Virus record (IMG/VR): IMGVR_UViG_3300030117_006470
Coordinates: 1-32,493 of that record
Length of the DNA stretch: 32,493 bases
Strand: one strand, 5' to 3'
From: a virus
The translations under genes and the position numbers were made by a program. Positions 18,298 through 32,493 of the stretch are shown here, in pieces (within the stretch, counting starts at the first letter, position 1; the number at the start of each line of letters is the position of its first letter). The notes below the pieces were generated by a model. It made no database searches and was not told the DNA's origin. It was given only the letters and a program-made list of their open reading frames with translations.

Positions 18298-21273
18298 ATG
18301 AGTGCCAGAAAATTTAAGTTTATTTCACCCGGTGTTTTCCTAAACGAAATTGACAATTCACAACTACCAAACGAACCAAGAGAGATTGGTCCGCTTTTTA
18401 TTGGTAGAGCAAAATATGGTCCAGCAATGAGACCAGTAACCGTTGATTCTTTCGCAGAGTTTGTTCAGCTTTATGGTGAGCCAATTCCTGGTGGAAAATC
18501 TAACGACGTTTGGAGAAATGGAAATGAACAAACTCCAACTTATGGTGCGTATGCTTCACAAGCTTGGTTAAGAAACTCATCAACTTGCACTTACATGCGT
18601 CTCTTGGGGTCACAGAACGTAAATGCTTCTACTGCTGGCAAAGCAGGTTATCGACTTGAAGCGACTTCCCCTCTAGGTTTAGACATTCAGGGTACCCCTG
18701 ATTTTGAAGCAGCGGCTAGTGGAAATCCAACTGGCTCAGCCTATGGCTTGTTCGTATTCACAAACCAATTAAGCGGTACCTTGGGTGCTCAAGCGACTGG
18801 TTCATTGGTTGCCACTTGGTATGTAGCAGACGGAATGGTTGGTCTAGTTGGTAACGAATCCTCTGGCGTACCAATTAGTCGTAGAGCAGTCGGCAGTGGC
18901 AGCGCCCGTCTTATTGCGGCTGACTCAAATGATCGCTTTACAGTTATGATCTCGGGGTCTGAAGGTAGCTACACAAGAAACCGTGTTATAAGCTTCTCAT
19001 TGTCGGAGGCAAATCAAGACTACATAAGAAATGTATTTAATACAAACCCAACTCTTACAAATGCAACAATCACAAAGGCAAATCAGCGAGAGAGATACTG
19101 GTTAGGCGAGACATACGCTACTGAATTCCTTCAGAAAACAGCAAGAAATGTTGTTAGCGGCTCTGGCTTTTCAGGCAGCTTTGGCGACTCAAGCTACGTC
19201 GGCGTCGTTCTACCACTAGCTACTGGTTCTTCAGCTAGGCACAGTAATCGTCAGATCCCATTTGAGAATGGGGCAACCAGGAACAACCCAGCAACTGGGT
19301 ATGTGTTTGGACAAGACTTAGGCGGTGCTTCAGCAGCGGGCGTATACGAATATGATAAAATGACTAAGTTGTTTAGAATCCATGCACTAGATCACGCAGA
19401 GTGGGCGCAAAACAACATTAAGATCTCTATCGCAAATATTAACTACTCACAAGACCAATTCAATAAGTATGGTACTTTTGACGTCTTAGTCCGTCGTGCT
19501 AACGATACAGACGCAGCGCCGATAGTTATTGAAAGATTTAGCAACTGTAATTTGGACGCGAACTCTCTAGATTATGTTGCAAGAAAAATAGGTGATCAGC
19601 ACTTGCAGTTTAATACTACTACAAGAAGACTGCAAACACGCGGAGAGTATCCAAACAATTCTAAGTACATTCGAATTGAAATGGAGTCTGACTCCTTTGA
19701 ATCAACAGAATTGCTGCCATTTGGCTTTTATGGTCCATTAAAGTACAAAGACTTTTCAATCGCACCTGCAACAAACTTAAGTCTAACAAACTTTGGTGAG
19801 GGAGTTATGGCACTCGGTGCTAAAAACTTTTTAGCAGCAAATATTACAGGTTCAACCACAGACTTAGTTCTAACCGGTTCAGGGCTAAAATTCCAGAATG
19901 GTGCAGGTCCAGAACTTAAGTTCCTTTACCCATCACATGAATTAAGAATCTCAGGCAATCAAGATGGTCTCGCAGACCAAACTGATGCTTTCTGGGGAGT
20001 CTGGACTGGTATTTCCAAGACAAGCGGTAAGTTTAACCGTGATTATGCAGACTTAAATAGAAATAGATCAGACATCATCACAGCACCGTTAACAGACACC
20101 GCTTATAGTGAGCACCAATTTGTGTTTACTTTAGATGAGCTTAGTGGCAGTTCTGCTATTAGCGCAGCAACTGCTTGGGTATCAGGTTCACGAAAATCAG
20201 GTGCAGCGATTAGTTCAAAAACTGGCAATACATACAAAAATGTTATTGACTTGGGGTTTGATCGTTTTACAATGCCAATGTTCGGCGGCTCAGACGGTCT
20301 AAACATCACAGAAAAAGACCCCTTCAGAAATACTTACTTGGACGATGGTGGTAATTCTGCTGAAGATAACTACGCATACAACACAATTAAGGAAGCAATT
20401 GACATTGCTAGAGATCCAGAGTTTGTACCATACAATCTAATCTCAGTTCCTGGTGTTACCAACGAACAGTTAACAACTCACTTAGTTAACACTGCCGAAG
20501 CAAGAGCCGACGCATTGGCGGTTATCGACCTTAAAGGTGATTTCCAGCCAGCACACGAAGCAACAGCAAAGGTATACCCTGACTTAAGCACTACCGTAAC
20601 AAACTTGAAATCACGTCAGATCAATTCAAGCTATGGTTGCGCTTACTATCCCTTCGTTCAGATTAGAGATACTCTCAAGGGACAATTGGTATACATGCCA
20701 GCCTCTGTAGCTGCTATTGGAGCCTTCTCATACACAGATAGAGTAAGAGCCCCATGGTTCGCCCCAGCAGGCTTTAATCGTGGCGGTCTATCAAGCGGTG
20801 TAGCAGGCTTACCAGTTGTTAATGTAACTGAGAAGTTAACTGCACAAGATAGAGACACACTCTACGATGCGAACATCAACCCAATTGCTTCATTCCCAAA
20901 TGAGGGTATTGTGATCTTTGGTCAGAAGACCTTACAAGTTACAAGAAGTGCATTAGACAGAATTAACGTTCGCAGACTGCTTATCTTCATTAAGAAGGGT
21001 ATTTCAAATATCGCAGCCGGTGTCTTATTTGAGCCTAATGTTCGTGCCACATGGGCAAGATTCATTGGTCAGGCTAATCCTTTCCTTTCCGATGTTCAAG
21101 CAAGATTTGGCTTAGATGAATTCAAGCTAGTCTTGGACGAAACAACTACGACACCAGATTTAATCGATAGAAACATTCTATATGCAAAGGTTTACTTAAA
21201 GCCAACCCGCGCAATTGAATTCGTAGCTGTTGATTTCATTATCACTAATACGGGTGCATCTTTTGAGGATTAA
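18298..21273 (+). CDS. Tail sheath protein (gp18-like), enlarged
   Basis: 991 residues against 659 for T4 gp18. The N-terminus SPGVFLNEIDNSQLPNEPRE and IGPLFIGRAKYGPAMRPVTV is the conserved sheath handshake region. The C-terminal 180 residues (RVRAPWFAPAGFNRGGLSSG, LTAQDRDTLYDANINPIASF, GQKTLQVTRSALDRINVRRL, KPTRAIEFVAVDFIITNTGA) are the core contractile domain. The middle, about residues 110-780, is a long Gly/Ser/Thr/Asn-rich beta region, longer than in T4, so extra domains on the outside of the sheath are likely. The sheath polymerises round the tube and contracts to drive it through the envelope. It begins a transcription unit with its own late-promoter candidate. Confidence 0.93.
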   Translation: MSARKFKFISPGVFLNEIDNSQLPNEPREIGPLFIGRAKYGPAMRPVTVDSFAEFVQLYGEPIPGGKSNDVWRNGNEQTPTYGAYASQAWLRNSSTCTYMRLLGSQNVNASTAGKAGYRLEATSPLGLDIQGTPDFEAAASGNPTGSAYGLFVFTNQLSGTLGAQATGSLVATWYVADGMVGLVGNESSGVPISRRAVGSGSARLIAADSNDRFTVMISGSEGSYTRNRVISFSLSEANQDYIRNVFNTNPTLTNATITKANQRERYWLGETYATEFLQKTARNVVSGSGFSGSFGDSSYVGVVLPLATGSSARHSNRQIPFENGATRNNPATGYVFGQDLGGASAAGVYEYDKMTKLFRIHALDHAEWAQNNIKISIANINYSQDQFNKYGTFDVLVRRANDTDAAPIVIERFSNCNLDANSLDYVARKIGDQHLQFNTTTRRLQTRGEYPNNSKYIRIEMESDSFESTELLPFGFYGPLKYKDFSIAPATNLSLTNFGEGVMALGAKNFLAANITGSTTDLVLTGSGLKFQNGAGPELKFLYPSHELRISGNQDGLADQTDAFWGVWTGISKTSGKFNRDYADLNRNRSDIITAPLTDTAYSEHQFVFTLDELSGSSAISAATAWVSGSRKSGAAISSKTGNTYKNVIDLGFDRFTMPMFGGSDGLNITEKDPFRNTYLDDGGNSAEDNYAYNTIKEAIDIARDPEFVPYNLISVPGVTNEQLTTHLVNTAEARADALAVIDLKGDFQPAHEATAKVYPDLSTTVTNLKSRQINSSYGCAYYPFVQIRDTLKGQLVYMPASVAAIGAFSYTDRVRAPWFAPAGFNRGGLSSGVAGLPVVNVTEKLTAQDRDTLYDANINPIASFPNEGIVIFGQKTLQVTRSALDRINVRRLLIFIKKGISNIAAGVLFEPNVRATWARFIGQANPFLSDVQARFGLDEFKLVLDETTTTPDLIDRNILYAKVYLKPTRAIEFVAVDFIITNTGASFED

Positions 21274-21304: not shown

Positions 21305-21862
21305 ATGGCTGTAAACAAAGCATCACCAATTCCACCATGGGCATCAGTTAAGATTGAGCCAAAGAGGCAATTTAAATTTATCTTGACCATAGGAGATATT
21401 CCTGCTTGGGTTGTAACCGAATGTGATAGACCAAACCCTAACTTTGCCGGTGCTGTAAATCACGAATTTTTAGGACATCAGTTCAAATATCCAGGTAAGT
21501 TACAATGGTCAGATGTCAATGTAACGCTCGTTGAACCAGTTGATCCTGATGTATCTGGTCAAGTCTTAGATGCAGTTATCAAGGCGGGCTATAACCCACC
21601 ATCAACTTGGACCGCAGATAATGAAGGTTGGAGAACTACTTTCTCAAAAGAAAGATTCGTAACTGGAAACTTCGGCAATATCGCAATCAAAGTTTTAGAT
21701 TCTGATGGCAACGAAGTTGAAACCTGGACATTGTTTAATTCTTTTGTTTCAGACGTAAATTATTCTAAACTTCAATACAGCGGTAACAGCATTAATACCG
21801 TTAGTTTGAAATTTAGTTATGATTATGCTACTGTTAACATTACGGAAATTAACCAAAATTAA
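21305..21862 (+). CDS. Tail tube protein (gp19-like), first paralogue
   Basis: 185 residues (T4 gp19 163). Features: EPKRQFKFILTIGDIPAWVV, CDRPNPNFAGAVNHEFLGHQ, FKYPGKLQWSDVNVTLVEPV and VETWTLFNSFVSDVNYSKLQ, the standard T4-type tube pattern. Hexamers stack to form the DNA conduit inside the sheath. It follows the sheath gene with a 31-base gap and CAGGAG 8 bases before its ATG. The next gene is a divergent paralogue of identical length, so one copy may form the tube and the other a specialised ring. Confidence 0.9.
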   Translation: MAVNKASPIPPWASVKIEPKRQFKFILTIGDIPAWVVTECDRPNPNFAGAVNHEFLGHQFKYPGKLQWSDVNVTLVEPVDPDVSGQVLDAVIKAGYNPPSTWTADNEGWRTTFSKERFVTGNFGNIAIKVLDSDGNEVETWTLFNSFVSDVNYSKLQYSGNSINTVSLKFSYDYATVNITEINQN

Positions 21863-21883: not shown

Positions 21884-22441
21884 ATGTCAGATATAAATTA
21901 CATACAAACAGTTAGATCTTCGCTGCAAAGCAATTTTCGGTTCCTGTTAAGGATTGACGATATTCCATTTGCTATGATCTCAAGCGTGACAAGACCAAGC
22001 CCAAATTTTGGTTCACCTAAAGAGTTTCAGCTTTTAAACTGGAAGTTCAAAAATCCAACCGGAATTGTTAGTTGGGGCGATGTAACTTTTAAAATAGTCG
22101 AAAGTTTTGACAATGAAAAGTTTGATAGTATTTCAGGAATGCTGTTGAAAACATACAAAACTCTTGGATATGACAACCCAAATCAAATTAACCCATCAAA
22201 TCTTAAAGACATGAACAAAAAAGATTTAATAAATTCTATAGGAACTGTTAAAATAGAAGTGTTAACACCGGAAGGAGATGTTTATGAAACATGGCAATTG
22301 TTTAATGCATTTGTTTCTAAGATTGATTTTGAAGGGTTAAACTACACAGGAGCTTCCATACTTGGAGCTTCTGTCTCATTGGCATATGACTGGGCGGCTA
22401 TGACTTATAGAACCGCCGCAGGCAAAGAAACAACTTATTAA
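21884..22441 (+). CDS. Tail tube protein (gp19-like), second paralogue
   Basis: 185 residues sharing the layout of the preceding tube protein: QSNFRFLLRIDDIPFAMISS, TRPSPNFGSPKEFQLLNWKF, TGIVSWGDVTFKIVESFDNE and VYETWQLFNAFVSKIDFEGL. Identity with its neighbour is modest by eye, with conserved RP-PNF, W-DV and ETW-LFN-FVS motifs. It has no Shine-Dalgarno; the ATG is preceded by ATAATTATTATAG, similar to the sequence before the starts at 24805 and 28981. Different translation signals suggest lower or differently timed expression than the first copy. It could form a minor tube ring near the neck or baseplate. Confidence 0.85.
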   Translation: MSDINYIQTVRSSLQSNFRFLLRIDDIPFAMISSVTRPSPNFGSPKEFQLLNWKFKNPTGIVSWGDVTFKIVESFDNEKFDSISGMLLKTYKTLGYDNPNQINPSNLKDMNKKDLINSIGTVKIEVLTPEGDVYETWQLFNAFVSKIDFEGLNYTGASILGASVSLAYDWAAMTYRTAAGKETTY

Positions 22442-26002: not shown

Positions 26003-28945
26003 ATGGATTTATTCTTTCCAGCAAAACTGGCAACAGTAGATAAGAAAAGCTCTCTGGACCAAGCCTTTTTGATTCAGAGCTTGCTTCCTCATATTGCCAA
26101 CTCTAAAAATAAAAATAAAATTTATAAATTTTTTAAAGAGCAGCACAAACAGCAAATTGAAAAAGACTTTGAACTTAATAAAAGAACGATCTCTTTAAAC
26201 ACATCGTATGGTTGTGATTTTGAGTCCGGTCTTAGATTTGCATCAGTGGATGAAAGACAGGCACATATTAAAATGATGCAGAATCTAACAACTGTACAAA
26301 AGGCTGCTTTGGTACCATACATTCGAATGTACTTGGTCCCAAATCCATATACAAAAACAGAATTAGATTTTAAGAGAGGCGCAGTTCCTCTAGCCTTTGG
26401 AAAAAGTTTTGATTTGGATTTTTATTTAGATAAGGTCCAAGGAGGTAGTATTAATGATAGAGTCACAGGTAGGTTGCAATCCACATTTACTAACGGCTCA
26501 AATATTAAAGCTGCCAGTCGAGGCGAGTTAGCTGCTATCCAATCAATGACAGTAAACCGGGTTTACAATCAGACAAACATTTTTGATCCGATTAATATTG
26601 ATATGAGTTTCTATTTCTCATCTTTCCATGTATTTGCCCATAAACCTGCGATAGAGATCTCCAGTGGTTTAAACACTTATCTCAACAGACTCTCCCAAGG
26701 TGGTGGTATTAGCAGCTTTTTTTCTGATATAAAAGATCTAAGATATACAGAGTTAATAACGTTACAAAACAAAGATTACAAATTAGTGGTTGAATATGGT
26801 TGGAACGTTGATGACGCAGTTTCCGATCAGGTCCTAAGTTTTAAAGATAAAGCAAGAATTAAAAAGTTTGAAAAGACTTTTTATCTAATGAACCCTAATG
26901 ATCATAAAATTAATTTTAACGAGGATGGCAGTTTCGTAATGAATGTTAGTTACGTCCCCTCGACAGTTGATAGCATATTTAAATCAACAGACTTTAAGAC
27001 AGGTATCTTTTTCAATGAGAAGGTCTATAAAAAAATTAAAGGAGCTACAACGGAAAACATCCGTGAAAAGGTTACAAAAATTAAGAAATTAGATTCTGTA
27101 ACTTTTTACGATCAGCCACAAAAAGAAATTGAAAGGTTAAAAGAGATGTCTGTTTTAAAAGAGGAGCTATCGAATTTAAAACACACAAGTTACATAGATT
27201 TGTTTGAAAAATTTTGTGAAGATAGCGACTTAATATATAATGCTTCAATCACTACTACAAAAACAAAAGATAAAAAGTACACATTGAAAACTAAAATTAC
27301 AAAAAAACTTAGATTTTCATCTGACACATCACAAGAACCAATCCCGGTGGATGGCAAAGAGGTGGTGACTTCTACAACTTATGATGCGGATAGCGTTAAG
27401 AGAAGCGTTCTACAAATAAGAGAAAAGTCAAAACTTAAAACTTCTATCTTGTCAGATAAACAGAAATTAAAAACAATTGATTTTCTAGGGTTATCAGACA
27501 AATTTGATTATGAGCCAGGAACCACAGTCGCAGCATATGCTAAAAAGTTCCTGGATGATTTACAGGAAGAGATCTTTAGTGATCTATTGGTGAGCCTGCC
27601 GGGTTTAAAAATCGTTAGTTTTATGTTGTTTAGGGACATTTTAAATGTTATAACCCAATTAGCGAAGGCGACTGGTGAAAAAGACGAAATCCCATACTTT
27701 GTTTTAGGAAATTTTCCCATGCCAATGACTAATGGTAAAAAGTACTGGTGTAATGTTGGCGATATCCCAATTGAGATGAAAATGGTTAAGTCTACATTGC
27801 GAGCTTTTTTCAACCAAAGACCAAAGGCTTCTTTCAAAGATTTCTTATATTATTACTTGCATGACGTATTCCCATCGTTAGTTGTTCAAAAAGAACAACG
27901 CGCTGCCCTGCCATCAATATGTTTTCCCTATTTTCATTTTAACCAAAAAAAGTGGAAAAACAACTCGGCATTGAACAAAAACTATTTTGATTTGATTGAC
28001 GGCAACAAAAATGCGATTAAGAGCTTTGCAAAAGATTATTTTAATGATAGTGAGTTTGACAGTTCAATCGGCTGTCTATTTGTGGGTCAATCCCCCAGGC
28101 TAAGTTCAGAAAATTCTGGATTCTTTTTAGGCAGGAACGTAAAAATTGCGTCCGATGCATTCTTAAAGGATGATACTCAGCTATTAGATGCCGGAATTGG
28201 TAAAATGGTTGTTGGCGCTTCAAATGGACTTGTGAAAAATTTAACTTTTAATTCGTCTGGTGATCAATACATCAATAACTTAAATTATGAATTAAATAAG
28301 CAAAAGCCAGGGGTTGGTCCTATTCTTATCTCATCTGCATACCAATACACTGTTAATGCTACTTTATATGGCAATCGTATTCATGAATTCTCAAACCTCA
28401 TATATATCCCTGCCGGGAGTCTTGGTTATAGTCCGCTTTCTCCAAAAGACGCTTTGAAAAGAGTGGGCTTTGAAGATTTTGAAATTGGTGGGTTGTATAC
28501 TATCAATTCAATAACAGATCAACTGGACATGAAAAACGGAATGTACACAAAGACCATTAATGCATCTACGGTAAAAAGAGAGTCTCAGTTGGTTTCCTTT
28601 GCGTTGTCCTTGGCTGAAAAGAGCACTGACAAGGAAGTCTTGTTCCCTACAAACGGTATGCTGTATTCTTTTCCACAATATGTTTATGATAATACAGAGG
28701 CAATCGATAAAACGTATAGAATAAAAATAGCTAATATCGAAGATAAAATATTTGAAGAAGACATTCTCGATGAGGCACTTGCTACACAAGAACTTGAAGA
28801 ATCAGGGCTTCTTGAGCTTGCTGATCAAACTGGCGCACAAGTAGATTTTGAGCAACAGCAACAAATCTCATCCACAGCTATAGGACCTACCGGGACAGAA
28901 AGACCACAGTCAGTATCTCCACAACCACCCTTATCAGGAATCTAG
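26003..28945 (+). CDS. Very large baseplate hub candidate
   Basis: 980 residues, far larger than T4 gp27 (391). The last third has features of hub proteins of the gp27/gpD type: SSAYQYTVNATLYGNRIHEF followed by FSNLIYIPAGSLGYSPLSPK, and GGLYTINSITDQLDMKNGMY with TKTINAS, the 'yxVxsvxhxfxxgxfxTxl' strand pair. The N-terminal third contains helical then beta segments (FYFSSFHVFAHKPAIEISSG), and the middle a charged coiled coil (QKEIERLKEMSVLKEELSNL). The C-terminus is a Gln/Pro/Ser-rich disordered tail. Location after the tube initiator and LysM wedge genes supports a central baseplate role. No lysozyme or peptidase motif is seen. Hub is an inference from the C-terminal patterns. Confidence 0.6.
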   Translation: MDLFFPAKLATVDKKSSLDQAFLIQSLLPHIANSKNKNKIYKFFKEQHKQQIEKDFELNKRTISLNTSYGCDFESGLRFASVDERQAHIKMMQNLTTVQKAALVPYIRMYLVPNPYTKTELDFKRGAVPLAFGKSFDLDFYLDKVQGGSINDRVTGRLQSTFTNGSNIKAASRGELAAIQSMTVNRVYNQTNIFDPINIDMSFYFSSFHVFAHKPAIEISSGLNTYLNRLSQGGGISSFFSDIKDLRYTELITLQNKDYKLVVEYGWNVDDAVSDQVLSFKDKARIKKFEKTFYLMNPNDHKINFNEDGSFVMNVSYVPSTVDSIFKSTDFKTGIFFNEKVYKKIKGATTENIREKVTKIKKLDSVTFYDQPQKEIERLKEMSVLKEELSNLKHTSYIDLFEKFCEDSDLIYNASITTTKTKDKKYTLKTKITKKLRFSSDTSQEPIPVDGKEVVTSTTYDADSVKRSVLQIREKSKLKTSILSDKQKLKTIDFLGLSDKFDYEPGTTVAAYAKKFLDDLQEEIFSDLLVSLPGLKIVSFMLFRDILNVITQLAKATGEKDEIPYFVLGNFPMPMTNGKKYWCNVGDIPIEMKMVKSTLRAFFNQRPKASFKDFLYYYLHDVFPSLVVQKEQRAALPSICFPYFHFNQKKWKNNSALNKNYFDLIDGNKNAIKSFAKDYFNDSEFDSSIGCLFVGQSPRLSSENSGFFLGRNVKIASDAFLKDDTQLLDAGIGKMVVGASNGLVKNLTFNSSGDQYINNLNYELNKQKPGVGPILISSAYQYTVNATLYGNRIHEFSNLIYIPAGSLGYSPLSPKDALKRVGFEDFEIGGLYTINSITDQLDMKNGMYTKTINASTVKRESQLVSFALSLAEKSTDKEVLFPTNGMLYSFPQYVYDNTEAIDKTYRIKIANIEDKIFEEDILDEALATQELEESGLLELADQTGAQVDFEQQQQISSTAIGPTGTERPQSVSPQPPLSGI

Positions 28946-28980: not shown

Positions 28981-30531
28981 ATGCCAGTTATCAACATAAA
29001 TAATTTAGAATTTAAAACCACGGAGAAAAAACGTGCTGCTCGTGATGTTGACGTCCGAGATATAAACAATTCATCTCCTGCTTCAGAGGTCTATGAAAGC
29101 CGTGCCTCTTACAAAAAACAGGTCAATCAAAAAAACTTGCCACTTAAAAACAAAAATAAAAACGATGTGAGTCTAAGGAACCAACTTGACCTTTGGTATA
29201 AAGATCTATTTTATGGTAAAAAAGATTATGCAAACAGACTTATTACTGTCAATTTTAACGATGATAATTTTAAAGAAATCGCTGGTACAAAGATTCAAGC
29301 TCTGAATTTTGTTGCCGACGCTGTAGAGAATTTTTTAGTGGATTACAATGTGAAAAGGAGAACCCATCCAAAGAGCATTTTAAACAATATAAAGATAATC
29401 CGAGGATATTCGTCAAGCCGCGATTATCAAGTATACTTTAGAGAGCTTTATAGCTTATTCTTTGCTGACGTCCTAAATGATATAAAATTTACAGACAAGA
29501 TAAAAAACATAGATGACTTTATAAATTTATTTTTCTTGTGGTCATTGACTACAAATAACCCAATAACTGAAACAGGGTTTTTCAAAAGCCAGGAATACAA
29601 TATCTATAATACTGGATTTGCGGTTGATTTTATTACAATAAACAGTGAAAAAGATAAACAAAAAATCCTCAACGACCCGAGATATGGTGCTTTAAACTAT
29701 ACTGCGAAAATGAACGGATTAAAAATTGATCCAAACTATCCAGGCAGATTGATCGCTGACGTTGAATCAAGTGTTCTATTGGAAAAATACGTTTCAAACT
29801 ATTTCCCAGTCCCTGAACTACAAGACTTGCCAGAACTTATTTATAAAAATTATTTCATTAGGAGAAATTTTTATACTTCGTCGGAAAGTTTAATCTCAGA
29901 TTTCATAGGGAATATTATAAAAATTTACAATTCTTTTATTAAGAAATACCAATACAGGTCAGAATTTTCAACTAATGGAGATTTAAGTCAGAAGTTTGCA
30001 AGGAAGTTCAGTACAAACAGGATAGAAAGAGAAAAAGGTGATTTATCTCAATTTTTTATTGAGGACGCCGCTGGTAAAGAAGTTATAGCCAAAAAAGCTT
30101 TGGTTACATACGCTAAGTTCAGAGCAAAGGAAGAAGGGTGTCTTTTAGAGAAGGAAGAGTTGTCTGTATTAACAAACAACATGAACAGTCTTGCTAAATT
30201 AGATAGTAGCACTGCTTATGTGGAAAATTCAAAATTTAATCAAGAAAAATTCTTATTGCAGTCACAGTCAATTAATTACTTGGAGAACTTCTTGTTTAGT
30301 AAGAATAATATGGATAAAACTAACACAAGAGACTTTATTTACTTTTGGACCCGTGGTAGAGAGTATACTGATAAATTTACAACTTTTTCCGAGCAAGAAG
30401 CTTTATTCTCTTATTTGCTAGCTGCTTTAGACGCTAAAAGAATAAAGTGTGATGGTGTACATCAGATGGAAAGTGGCTTGTTTATGCCTTGTAAGTCCCA
30501 CCAAAAATATGAAGCCTTGACAAAAAAGTAA
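28981..30531 (+). CDS. Unknown protein, probable virion/baseplate component
   Basis: 516 residues. The N-terminal 70 residues are basic and disordered (KKRAARDVDVRDINNSSPAS). A globular region follows with LDLWYKDLFYGKKDYANRLI (about 70-90) and, around 235-275, DPRYGALNYTAKMNGLKIDP with NYPGRLIADVESSVLLEKY; the latter resembles a GFxVDxNxPWRLxADl motif I recall from conserved structural proteins of marine T4-like phages. The C-terminus has Cys/His residues (KCDGVHQMESGLFMPCKSH). The start lacks a Shine-Dalgarno and is preceded by TTTGTTATAATTATTAT. No enzymatic motif is seen. A baseplate or fibre-attachment role is possible from position only. Confidence 0.6.
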   Translation: MPVININNLEFKTTEKKRAARDVDVRDINNSSPASEVYESRASYKKQVNQKNLPLKNKNKNDVSLRNQLDLWYKDLFYGKKDYANRLITVNFNDDNFKEIAGTKIQALNFVADAVENFLVDYNVKRRTHPKSILNNIKIIRGYSSSRDYQVYFRELYSLFFADVLNDIKFTDKIKNIDDFINLFFLWSLTTNNPITETGFFKSQEYNIYNTGFAVDFITINSEKDKQKILNDPRYGALNYTAKMNGLKIDPNYPGRLIADVESSVLLEKYVSNYFPVPELQDLPELIYKNYFIRRNFYTSSESLISDFIGNIIKIYNSFIKKYQYRSEFSTNGDLSQKFARKFSTNRIEREKGDLSQFFIEDAAGKEVIAKKALVTYAKFRAKEEGCLLEKEELSVLTNNMNSLAKLDSSTAYVENSKFNQEKFLLQSQSINYLENFLFSKNNMDKTNTRDFIYFWTRGREYTDKFTTFSEQEALFSYLLAALDAKRIKCDGVHQMESGLFMPCKSHQKYEALTKK

Positions 30532-30551: not shown

Positions 30552-31739
30552 ATGTTTTTCTCAAAAATTGATACAAAAAATAATTGCAAGAGCATTTATG
30601 CGGACAACAAAATCTTCTCAGACTATGAAGAAAATATGAAATACACCTGGACTTACCAGGAAGATCTTCCTCTAGACGTAAAATTTGTTAAGCTGTTCTG
30701 TGGTGGAAAGGATTATACCGAAGTGTTGTCTGATCGAGATCGCAAAGAATATAAATCGCTTGAAGACAAAATTAAGAACACACTTAAATCATATGGCGTG
30801 TGCGGATACGACCCGCGAGACTTCTGTTTGGATGAGTTAGTAGGACCGTCGTTCATTGAGGACTATTTCAGTCTTAAAAACAAGGCAATGCGTTTAGCCG
30901 TTGAAAATTATAAAGAACCAAAAAACTATACTCAACTGGAAAATATTGAAAAATTAACATATTCAATCTCAAAACGTCCATTGAACTTAGATTTATCAAG
31001 CGTGTATACAGCCGCAAACGATAATCGGATAAAGAAAATTATTAAAAGATATTCAGCGAGTCCTGCGTTTATCCACTATAACACCTTCGGGACTATCACG
31101 GGGCGGTTATCTACTACCCCTGCCTCGTTTCCCCTCCTCACCCTCAATAAAGAATATCGCACGATGATCAAACCAAATAACGGTGTTTTTGTTGAGTTTG
31201 ATTACAATGCCTTTGAATTGCGTGTTCTTTTGGCTCTGGTTGGACGAGAACAGCCGAAAGAGGATATGCACGACTGGAACATCAAGAATATATTTAAGGA
31301 CGGTACAGAGCGATCTGAAGCGAAAAGGAGAATGTTTGCGTGGCTTTACAATCCAAATTCCGATGATAAGCTTTTATCTCGTGAGTATGACCGAGAAAGT
31401 TTACTAAAAAAATATTTTTCTGATGGCAAAATTACAACTGATTTTGATAGAGAGATTGAAACAGATAATTACCATGCACTCAATTATCTTGTTCAAAGTA
31501 CAGCATCTGATTTATTTTTAGAGCAGGCTTATAAGGTTCATAAGATTTTGGAGGACAATAACGCCAAGTCTTATGTTTCCATGCTTATTCATGACAGTAT
31601 GATTTTGGACTTTGATAGGATGGATTATAAACTACTTAATCAGATTAGAGATGTATTCAAACAAACAAGGTACGGTGAGTTTAAATTAAATATCCAGGTA
31701 GGAAAAACACTTGGTGGGTTAGGAACACAATGGAAATAA
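30552..31739 (+). CDS. Compact family A DNA polymerase, no exonuclease domain
   Basis: 395 residues carrying the complete set of family A polymerase motifs but none of the 3'-5' exonuclease. Motif 1/TGR at FGTITGRLSTTP (179-190); motif A VEFDYNAFELR with catalytic D217 and E222; DMH at 238-240 equals Pol I DIH; O-helix (motif B) with R254, K258, F262, Y266 in the Rx3Kx3Fx3Y spacing; QSTASDLFL (315-323) equals QGTAADI; motif C LIHDSMILDF with H347 and D348. Pol I has about 600 residues in its Klenow part. The fingers and the stretch between B and C are reduced. T4 uses family B gp43, so this is a different replicase. Start ATG 30552 lacks a good ribosome site. The next gene overlaps its end by 10 bases. 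Confidence 0.85.
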   Translation: MFFSKIDTKNNCKSIYADNKIFSDYEENMKYTWTYQEDLPLDVKFVKLFCGGKDYTEVLSDRDRKEYKSLEDKIKNTLKSYGVCGYDPRDFCLDELVGPSFIEDYFSLKNKAMRLAVENYKEPKNYTQLENIEKLTYSISKRPLNLDLSSVYTAANDNRIKKIIKRYSASPAFIHYNTFGTITGRLSTTPASFPLLTLNKEYRTMIKPNNGVFVEFDYNAFELRVLLALVGREQPKEDMHDWNIKNIFKDGTERSEAKRRMFAWLYNPNSDDKLLSREYDRESLLKKYFSDGKITTDFDREIETDNYHALNYLVQSTASDLFLEQAYKVHKILEDNNAKSYVSMLIHDSMILDFDRMDYKLLNQIRDVFKQTRYGEFKLNIQVGKTLGGLGTQWK

Positions 31740-32493
31740 TAGGTATTGGCAACGCAGGTCGTGAAATATGTAAACTTTTTGATGAAAAGGGGTACAAAAC
31801 ATATTCTATTGATACACACAAAGACGCTTTTGTAAAATTCCCTAAAGTAAAGACGATCGAAGCGGCTGAGAAGGTTCAAATTGACCTGAGCGAACTTAAA
31901 AATAGTATAAAATCAAATGAAATCTTGTGTGTTATGGCAGGTTCAGGCGTTATAACTGGGGCTTGCCTAAAAATTCTAGAAAATTTTAAAGATAAGTCAA
32001 TAGGGTTTCTTTATATCCAGCCAGATACTTCTTTTATGAACAACAATGGTAAGGAAAGAGAACGAGTTGTAAGGAATATCCTACAAGAATTTGCACGATC
32101 AGGACTATTCAATAAAATGTGGATGGTTTCAAACAAAAGTATCTCTAACTTATCGTCCGATATATCAATTGGCAACTATTTTCAGAAGGTCAACGAAAAA
32201 ATTGTTGACATGTGGTGTCTAATGGAGTATTATGGACAGGCATCTGCGTTGATGGGAAACTTAGAAGAACCAGAAGAGCAGAATAGGATCGCAACTTTTG
32301 GACTGTACAGTCTTAACGATGAGGCAGAACAAAAGTTTTATGAACTAAGTGGAGTAAGGGAAAAGCACTTTTACTTTACTTTTAGCGAAGAAACATTAGC
32401 AGAAACAGGCAATGTTTTGGATTTAGTATCTCGTAAGTTAAAGAAGGCGGAAGAAAATGAATTTCAGCAAGTATCTTACGGCTTTTTCCCATC
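31730..32493 (+). CDS. Tubulin/FtsZ-like GTPase, 3' end outside window
   Basis: Open to the window edge: 254 full codons. ATG 31730 overlaps the polymerase end by 10 bases; AGGA 5 bases upstream. The order of features follows FtsZ/tubulins: T1 loop IIGIGNAGREIC (3-14); a short strand YSIDTHKDA (25-33); T4 glycine loop VMAGSGVITGA (68-78), degenerate compared with GGGTGTG; strand FLYIQPDTSFMNNNGKERER (93-112) like FtsZ VTKPFxFEGxxR; a helix RNILQEFARSG; strand KMWMVSNKSIS (129-139) like the FtsZ IPNDKL; and H7 ISIGNYFQKVNEKIVDMW (145-162). Phage tubulins (PhuZ, TubZ) position phage DNA or plasmids. The C-terminal half is incomplete here. The family is a good fit by feature order; function is open. 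Confidence 0.7.
   Translation, partial: MEIIGIGNAGREICKLFDEKGYKTYSIDTHKDAFVKFPKVKTIEAAEKVQIDLSELKNSIKSNEILCVMAGSGVITGACLKILENFKDKSIGFLYIQPDTSFMNNNGKERERVVRNILQEFARSGLFNKMWMVSNKSISNLSSDISIGNYFQKVNEKIVDMWCLMEYYGQASALMGNLEEPEEQNRIATFGLYSLNDEAEQKFYELSGVREKHFYFTFSEETLAETGNVLDLVSRKLKKAEENEFQQVSYGFFP

Follow-up and report, generated by a model that had tools for sequence, protein, structure and literature searches.

The last gene of the window, which is the whole 32,493-base virus record analysed here, encodes a protein predicted to belong to a compact and divergent FtsZ-fold family that is not related to PhuZ by sequence. The gene appears to be a core part of the replication block, inherited with it, in a large uncultivated clade of T4-type phages. 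From the fold, the gene order and the conservation pattern, we infer that the protein acts as a replisome-associated scaffold or accessory. The explanation that we prefer, plausible though tentative, is that of a compact FtsZ-fold protein fixed in the replication block, where it may serve as such a scaffold or accessory with a guanine nucleotide as ligand. If this is correct, the tubulin superfamily would gain a new job and a case of a pseudo-GTPase or of a nucleotide switch; a core gene of the replication block in a widespread uncultivated clade, coding for an FtsZ-fold protein that lacks the catalytic loop, would also receive a name. Of phage proteins with this fold, PhuZ, TubZ and two labelled proteins of uncultured phages are already known. 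Among the titles and abstracts brought up by searches of the open literature, which reached only a minority of subscription papers and preprints, none describes a protein of this fold from a replication block of T4 type. Neither of two Far-T4 phage papers (PMC4360716, PMC7198788) names FtsZ in its main text, and FtsZ is also missing from a survey of virioplankton polA neighbourhoods.

Fold and superfamily membership

The gene (31730–32493, +) starts with ATG and is cut at its 3′ end, so that the window holds 254 codons (to 32491) of a protein of about 281 aa. The missing 3′ sequence, which the original prediction had called for, was supplied by close IMG/VR relatives (81–91% identical), in which the full-length protein has 281 aa. 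All of the elements previously named in the translated frame are present and in the order given, namely, the T1 loop, the T4 loop, the FLYIQPDTSF strand, the GKERER helix and an H7 helix. Relatives are encoded by at least 481 viral contigs; the alignment was built outward via distant relatives, and the best 80 of these contigs with confirmed relatives were taken. AlphaFold2 with 51 aligned relatives yielded a model with pLDDT of 90.5 and pTM of 0.88, whereas 8 close sequences gave only a poor model (pLDDT 52), a deep alignment being required. The predicted structure comprises a Rossmann-like GTPase domain, the central helix H7 and a C-terminal domain, the arrangement of the tubulin/FtsZ superfamily. 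The elements follow each other in the order S1, H1, S2, short helices, S4, T4 loop, H4, S5, H5, S6, H6, H7, S7, S8, H10, S9 and S10, with secondary structure read from L001, a relative 91% identical to the window protein, and elements named by analogy with FtsZ. Among the PDB fold matches of the model, the best 50 listed are FtsZ throughout (E of 1e-12 to 7e-11, TM of 0.60–0.68), and both domains are aligned over 300 columns at 12–15% identity; the RMSD of approximately 5–6 Å indicates real divergence. The tubulin/FtsZ fold proposed from the sequence is thus supported by the model, C-terminal domain included, and among the matches listed neither a fold unlike tubulin/FtsZ nor another Rossmann-like family lacking the tubulin C-terminal domain came to the fore, FtsZ being matched over both domains.

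At the level of sequence profiles, no score exceeded the cut-off of either PF00091 or TIGR00065. The best E value for Pfam PF00091 was 0.0064, under the cut-off where scores are shown, and the NCBIfam model with the most members matched was ftsZ TIGR00065 (7 of the 51, best E 0.0091). The hhalign comparison with FtsZ (E 0.026) is not significant, yet it is collinear from T1 to H7 and scores better than comparisons of FtsZ with control families from the same operon. Searches of PDB, Pfam and PHROGs with single sequences or close relatives returned only noise. Because the profiles remain below threshold, the claim of an FtsZ fold rests on structure prediction, backed by the consistent register. 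The N-terminal region invites a different interpretation, an NAD-type Rossmann protein with an extra domain and no kinship to tubulin: the GxGxxG motif, together with Asp/Asn28 ending strand 2, recalls the NAD fingerprint, and dehydrogenase models match the N-terminal region weakly (TIGR00872, best E 5e-5). However, these matches span only about the first 90 residues of the member shown, the T6 Asn and the H7 aromatic residue and Asn are conserved, and the top PDB fold matches listed are all FtsZ over both domains. We rejected this interpretation, which is highly improbable, on account of the two-domain fold match.

The known phage tubulins, PhuZ and TubZ, form filaments by which DNA is moved or centred. 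Like the protein studied here, the PhuZ of phiKZ-like jumbo phages is phage-encoded, has the tubulin/FtsZ fold and is of similar size (phiKZ PHIKZ039, CDS of 984 nt). However, the phiKZ PhuZ frame matched the family HMM only at the level of noise (E 2.8), the PhuZ gene does not adjoin a polymerase in phiKZ, and it is FtsZ, not PhuZ, that heads the fold search among the PDB matches listed. The TubZ cassette is tubZ-tubR-tubC, whereas the neighbours of the gene studied here are replication genes. A kinship with PhuZ or TubZ, to which the original prediction had pointed, is accordingly not borne out. The best matches among viral models are A0A6J5RW92 (E 1.7e-12) and A0A8S5UFG9 (E 1.4e-8), two proteins of uncultured phages that already carry the label FtsZ or cell division protein; these are longer (387–452 aa) and only 8–14% identical to the FtsZ-fold protein.

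Nucleotide pocket and the opposite face

Compared with bacterial and archaeal FtsZ (TIGR00065; PF00091 plus the C-terminal domain), the protein shares the two-domain fold, the element order, the GxG of T1, the T6 Asn and the aromatic residue and Asn of H7. It differs in its length of 281 aa, a degenerate T4, the lack of the T7 NxDxxD motif, of H8 and of the C-terminal linker and tail, an identity of merely 12–15%, and in being a phage family of a replication operon rather than of a division cluster. Conservation was counted over 118 non-redundant relatives. In the T1 loop IIGIGNAG (residues 3–10; 31736–31759, +), G5 and G7 are invariant (118/118). The T4-like loop AGSGVITG (residues 70–77; 31937–31960, +) is placed opposite the FtsZ T4 by hhalign but departs from the GGGTGTG signature of FtsZ proper: G71 and S/T76 are mostly retained (110/118 and 107/118, respectively), and the other positions vary. 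The FLYIQPDTSF segment (residues 93–102) corresponds to strand S5, with P98 kept in 103 of the 118 relatives, and the GKERER helix that follows it is H5. Asn135 of T6 (32132–32134, +), opposite N165 of Escherichia coli FtsZ in the hhalign register, is present in 110/118. Helix H7 (residues 147–170; 32168–32239, +; from the secondary structure of L001) carries an aromatic residue at 150/151, position 150 being Tyr or Phe in 109/118, and Asn155 (112/118). The positions corresponding to N135 and N155 touch the guanine in FtsZ and tubulin. Conservation of this kind speaks against a chance resemblance to FtsZ, and the fold comparison settles the point. Most relatives thus possess the set of guanine-contact residues, that is, the T6 Asn, the H7 aromatic residue and the H7 Asn, and a small set is without them.

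The stretch between H7 and S7 (residues 171–186; 32240–32287, +) contains neither the T7 acid motif nor helix H8 of FtsZ proper, since these residues form no helix and show no conserved pair of acids. Nor was a C-terminal linker or an FtsA/ZipA-binding tail found among the 51 aligned proteins, which stop less than about 15 residues past Q272 and have no tail in common. As the T7 acids and H8 are absent, GTP hydrolysis of the FtsZ type is unlikely. Under the preferred explanation, the nucleotide that the protein binds, GTP or GDP, would have a structural or switch role and would not be hydrolysed by the FtsZ route.

Once the T1 glycines are set aside, the positions of highest invariance fall outside the pocket: Q119, R123 and S124 (each 118/118), H163 (115/118) and N166 (112/118). 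The first three belong to a motif particular to this family, Q119-E-F-A-R123-S124, where H5 ends (32084–32101, +). Judged from the topology, H5 and H7 would both end on the side away from the nucleotide, corresponding to the lower face of an FtsZ protofilament. The window protein has Q119, R123, S124 and R186, but its positions 163 and 166, His and Asn in most relatives, are Cys and Glu; the H163/N166 part of the patch is therefore not universal. Subunits might pair through the conserved face bearing Q119, R123 and S124, possibly into head-to-tail dimers or short oligomers. Six members (L134, L137, L141, L148, L169 and L175) lack the H7 Asn155, and most of these also lack the T6 Asn, yet Q119, R123 and S124 are retained. 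That the two Asn residues are mostly lost together is what one would predict were they in contact with a single ligand and the opposite face more important. The losses hint, at the level of sequence, that nucleotide contact may be dispensable in some lineages. They correspond to only 2–3 separate events, and the co-loss is less striking than it looked.

These features bear on two further explanations. In the first, the protein would form a cytomotive filament to position or segregate the replicating phage DNA in the manner of PhuZ or TubZ, its location in the replication block reflecting timing. The tubulin/FtsZ fold and the mostly conserved nucleotide pocket are what such a filament would have, and the two conserved regions, the pocket and the end of H5/H7, would suit head-to-tail assembly. 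However, the guanine-contact residues are lost in a subclade, the coupling to polA suggests a polymerase-like dosage, and the T7 acids, H8 and the C-terminal tail are missing, which makes this explanation unlikely. Of the replication-linked or DNA-positioning filament originally envisaged, the link to replication stands, whereas a GTP-driven filament is doubtful in view of the missing elements. In the second explanation, the protein would act as a decoy by which the FtsZ ring of the host is capped or poisoned; as a subunit offering a nucleotide face but no T7 or H8, it would terminate host protofilaments. Blocking FtsZ is a strategy known from phages, and the loss of T7/H8 and of the tail is what a chain terminator would need. 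On the other hand, with 12–15% identity to FtsZ the contact face is not copied, and the position in the replication block is fixed across the clade, whereas host-takeover genes are usually sporadic; we regard the decoy as improbable.

Replication block and the short polymerase

Across 174 distinct loci, the gene order is baseplate gene, unknown gene, polA, FtsZ-fold gene, gp32, uvsX, exonuclease and DnaB-type helicase. A polA gene lies upstream in 161 of the 163 loci with room for it, and a gp32-like gene lies downstream in all 155 with room. To avoid circularity, polA was also used alone as bait: of at least 555 polA loci, the 80 nearest were taken regardless of the FtsZ-fold gene, and all 79 of these with room carry it, although the farther loci may differ. 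The link to replication suggested in the original prediction is borne out by these three counts, and far more strongly than the window alone could show. The FtsZ-fold gene is present as a single copy in 11 large contigs, the largest contig among the relatives being 204 kb. In the window, two conserved upstream genes without PHROG matches were recognized by synteny, the immediate upstream neighbour of polA (28981–30531, +) and a large gene (26003–28945, +) that adjoins the baseplate wedge gene. Some relatives have an FKBP-like gene inserted between gp32 and uvsX (L024:6785–7285, L053:7835–8278, L082:7838–8281), and in L086, L152 and L196 approximately 2.5 kb of additional DNA separates polA from the FtsZ-fold gene.

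The partner gene (30552–31739, +) encodes a short family A DNA polymerase of 395 aa without an exonuclease domain (PF00476, E 1.1e-14). Its stop codon (31737–31739) lies inside the FtsZ-fold frame, giving a 10-nt overlap (31730–31739), in agreement with the coupling to a polymerase gene claimed earlier, and the polymerase carries its catalytic motifs: R and K of motif B and HD of motif C are kept in all 111 relatives. Overlap is found in 109 polA/FtsZ-fold pairs, 61 of them overlapping by 4 nt. In 9 contigs of 103–204 kb, the short PolA is the sole family A or B polymerase found. The use of the fold in a virion or assembly protein, suggested by the baseplate genes upstream of polA, is disfavoured by this context: gp32 follows in every locus with room, then uvsX, the exonuclease and the helicase where the locus is long enough, and the gene usually overlaps polA. 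The structural use that the original prediction had allowed for is accordingly very improbable.

A tblastn search with four members against 50,697 phage records detected no relative (a match to MW202753 with E of 2 was taken as chance), prokaryote genome contigs contained none, and the HMM found none in the whole genomes of RM378, immuto and Mel-JY01. The nearest cultured phages by terminase (gp17, 41%) are Flavobacterium phage immuto and Microcystis phage Mel-JY01. Both display the same order of short family A polymerase, X, gp32, RecA, exonuclease and DnaB. In contrast, their slot X opens with another protein of about 130–151 aa, an FtsZ-fold gene was found in neither, and both possess a second, full-size polymerase. 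The small protein in the slot after polA is a family common to the two phages (L200:1346–1801, L205:1674–2063), and in both of them the counterpart of the short polymerase (such as L200:1–1326) has YD, not HD, at motif C.

In this contrast, which comprises two lineages, the FtsZ-fold protein seems to go with the short polymerase when the latter is the sole polymerase, which favours a replisome scaffold or accessory. The FtsZ-fold protein would work with the short polymerase and gp32 in this capacity. Besides the block being kept without the FtsZ-fold gene in immuto and Mel-JY01, each with another, full-size polymerase, the preferred explanation is supported by the confidence of the fold, the single copy, the fixed gene order, the sole short PolA in the 9 contigs and the conservation of both the pocket and the Q119/R123/S124 motif. 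Gene order in the replication block does not, however, prove a shared activity. A stricter version, in which the protein is an obligate partner of the exonuclease-less sole replicative PolA, as a processivity or accessory factor or as a replisome scaffold, with GTP in a structural role, is rather doubtful. The absence of matches to clamp and clamp-loader models (PF02916, PF09116, PF16790), considered as support for a processivity role, was dropped; this argument carries no weight because PF02916 is also blank in Mel-JY01, whose annotation includes a clamp loader.

T4-type virion genes of the window

The rest of the window agrees with the assignment to a T4-type phage made in the original prediction, as it encodes the T4-type virion set of terminase, portal, protease, major head protein, sheath, tube and baseplate wedge. 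The tail sheath gene (18298–21273) is very long, encoding 991 aa; as the best sheath profile match begins only at residue 383, a large additional N-terminal part or insert is present. It is followed by two adjacent, paralogue-like tail tube genes of 185 aa each, at 21305–21862 (matching phrog_4542) and 21884–22441. At the opposite end from the FtsZ-fold gene, a gene for an SbcC-like subunit (phrog_77; 3–1193) is cut by the window start.
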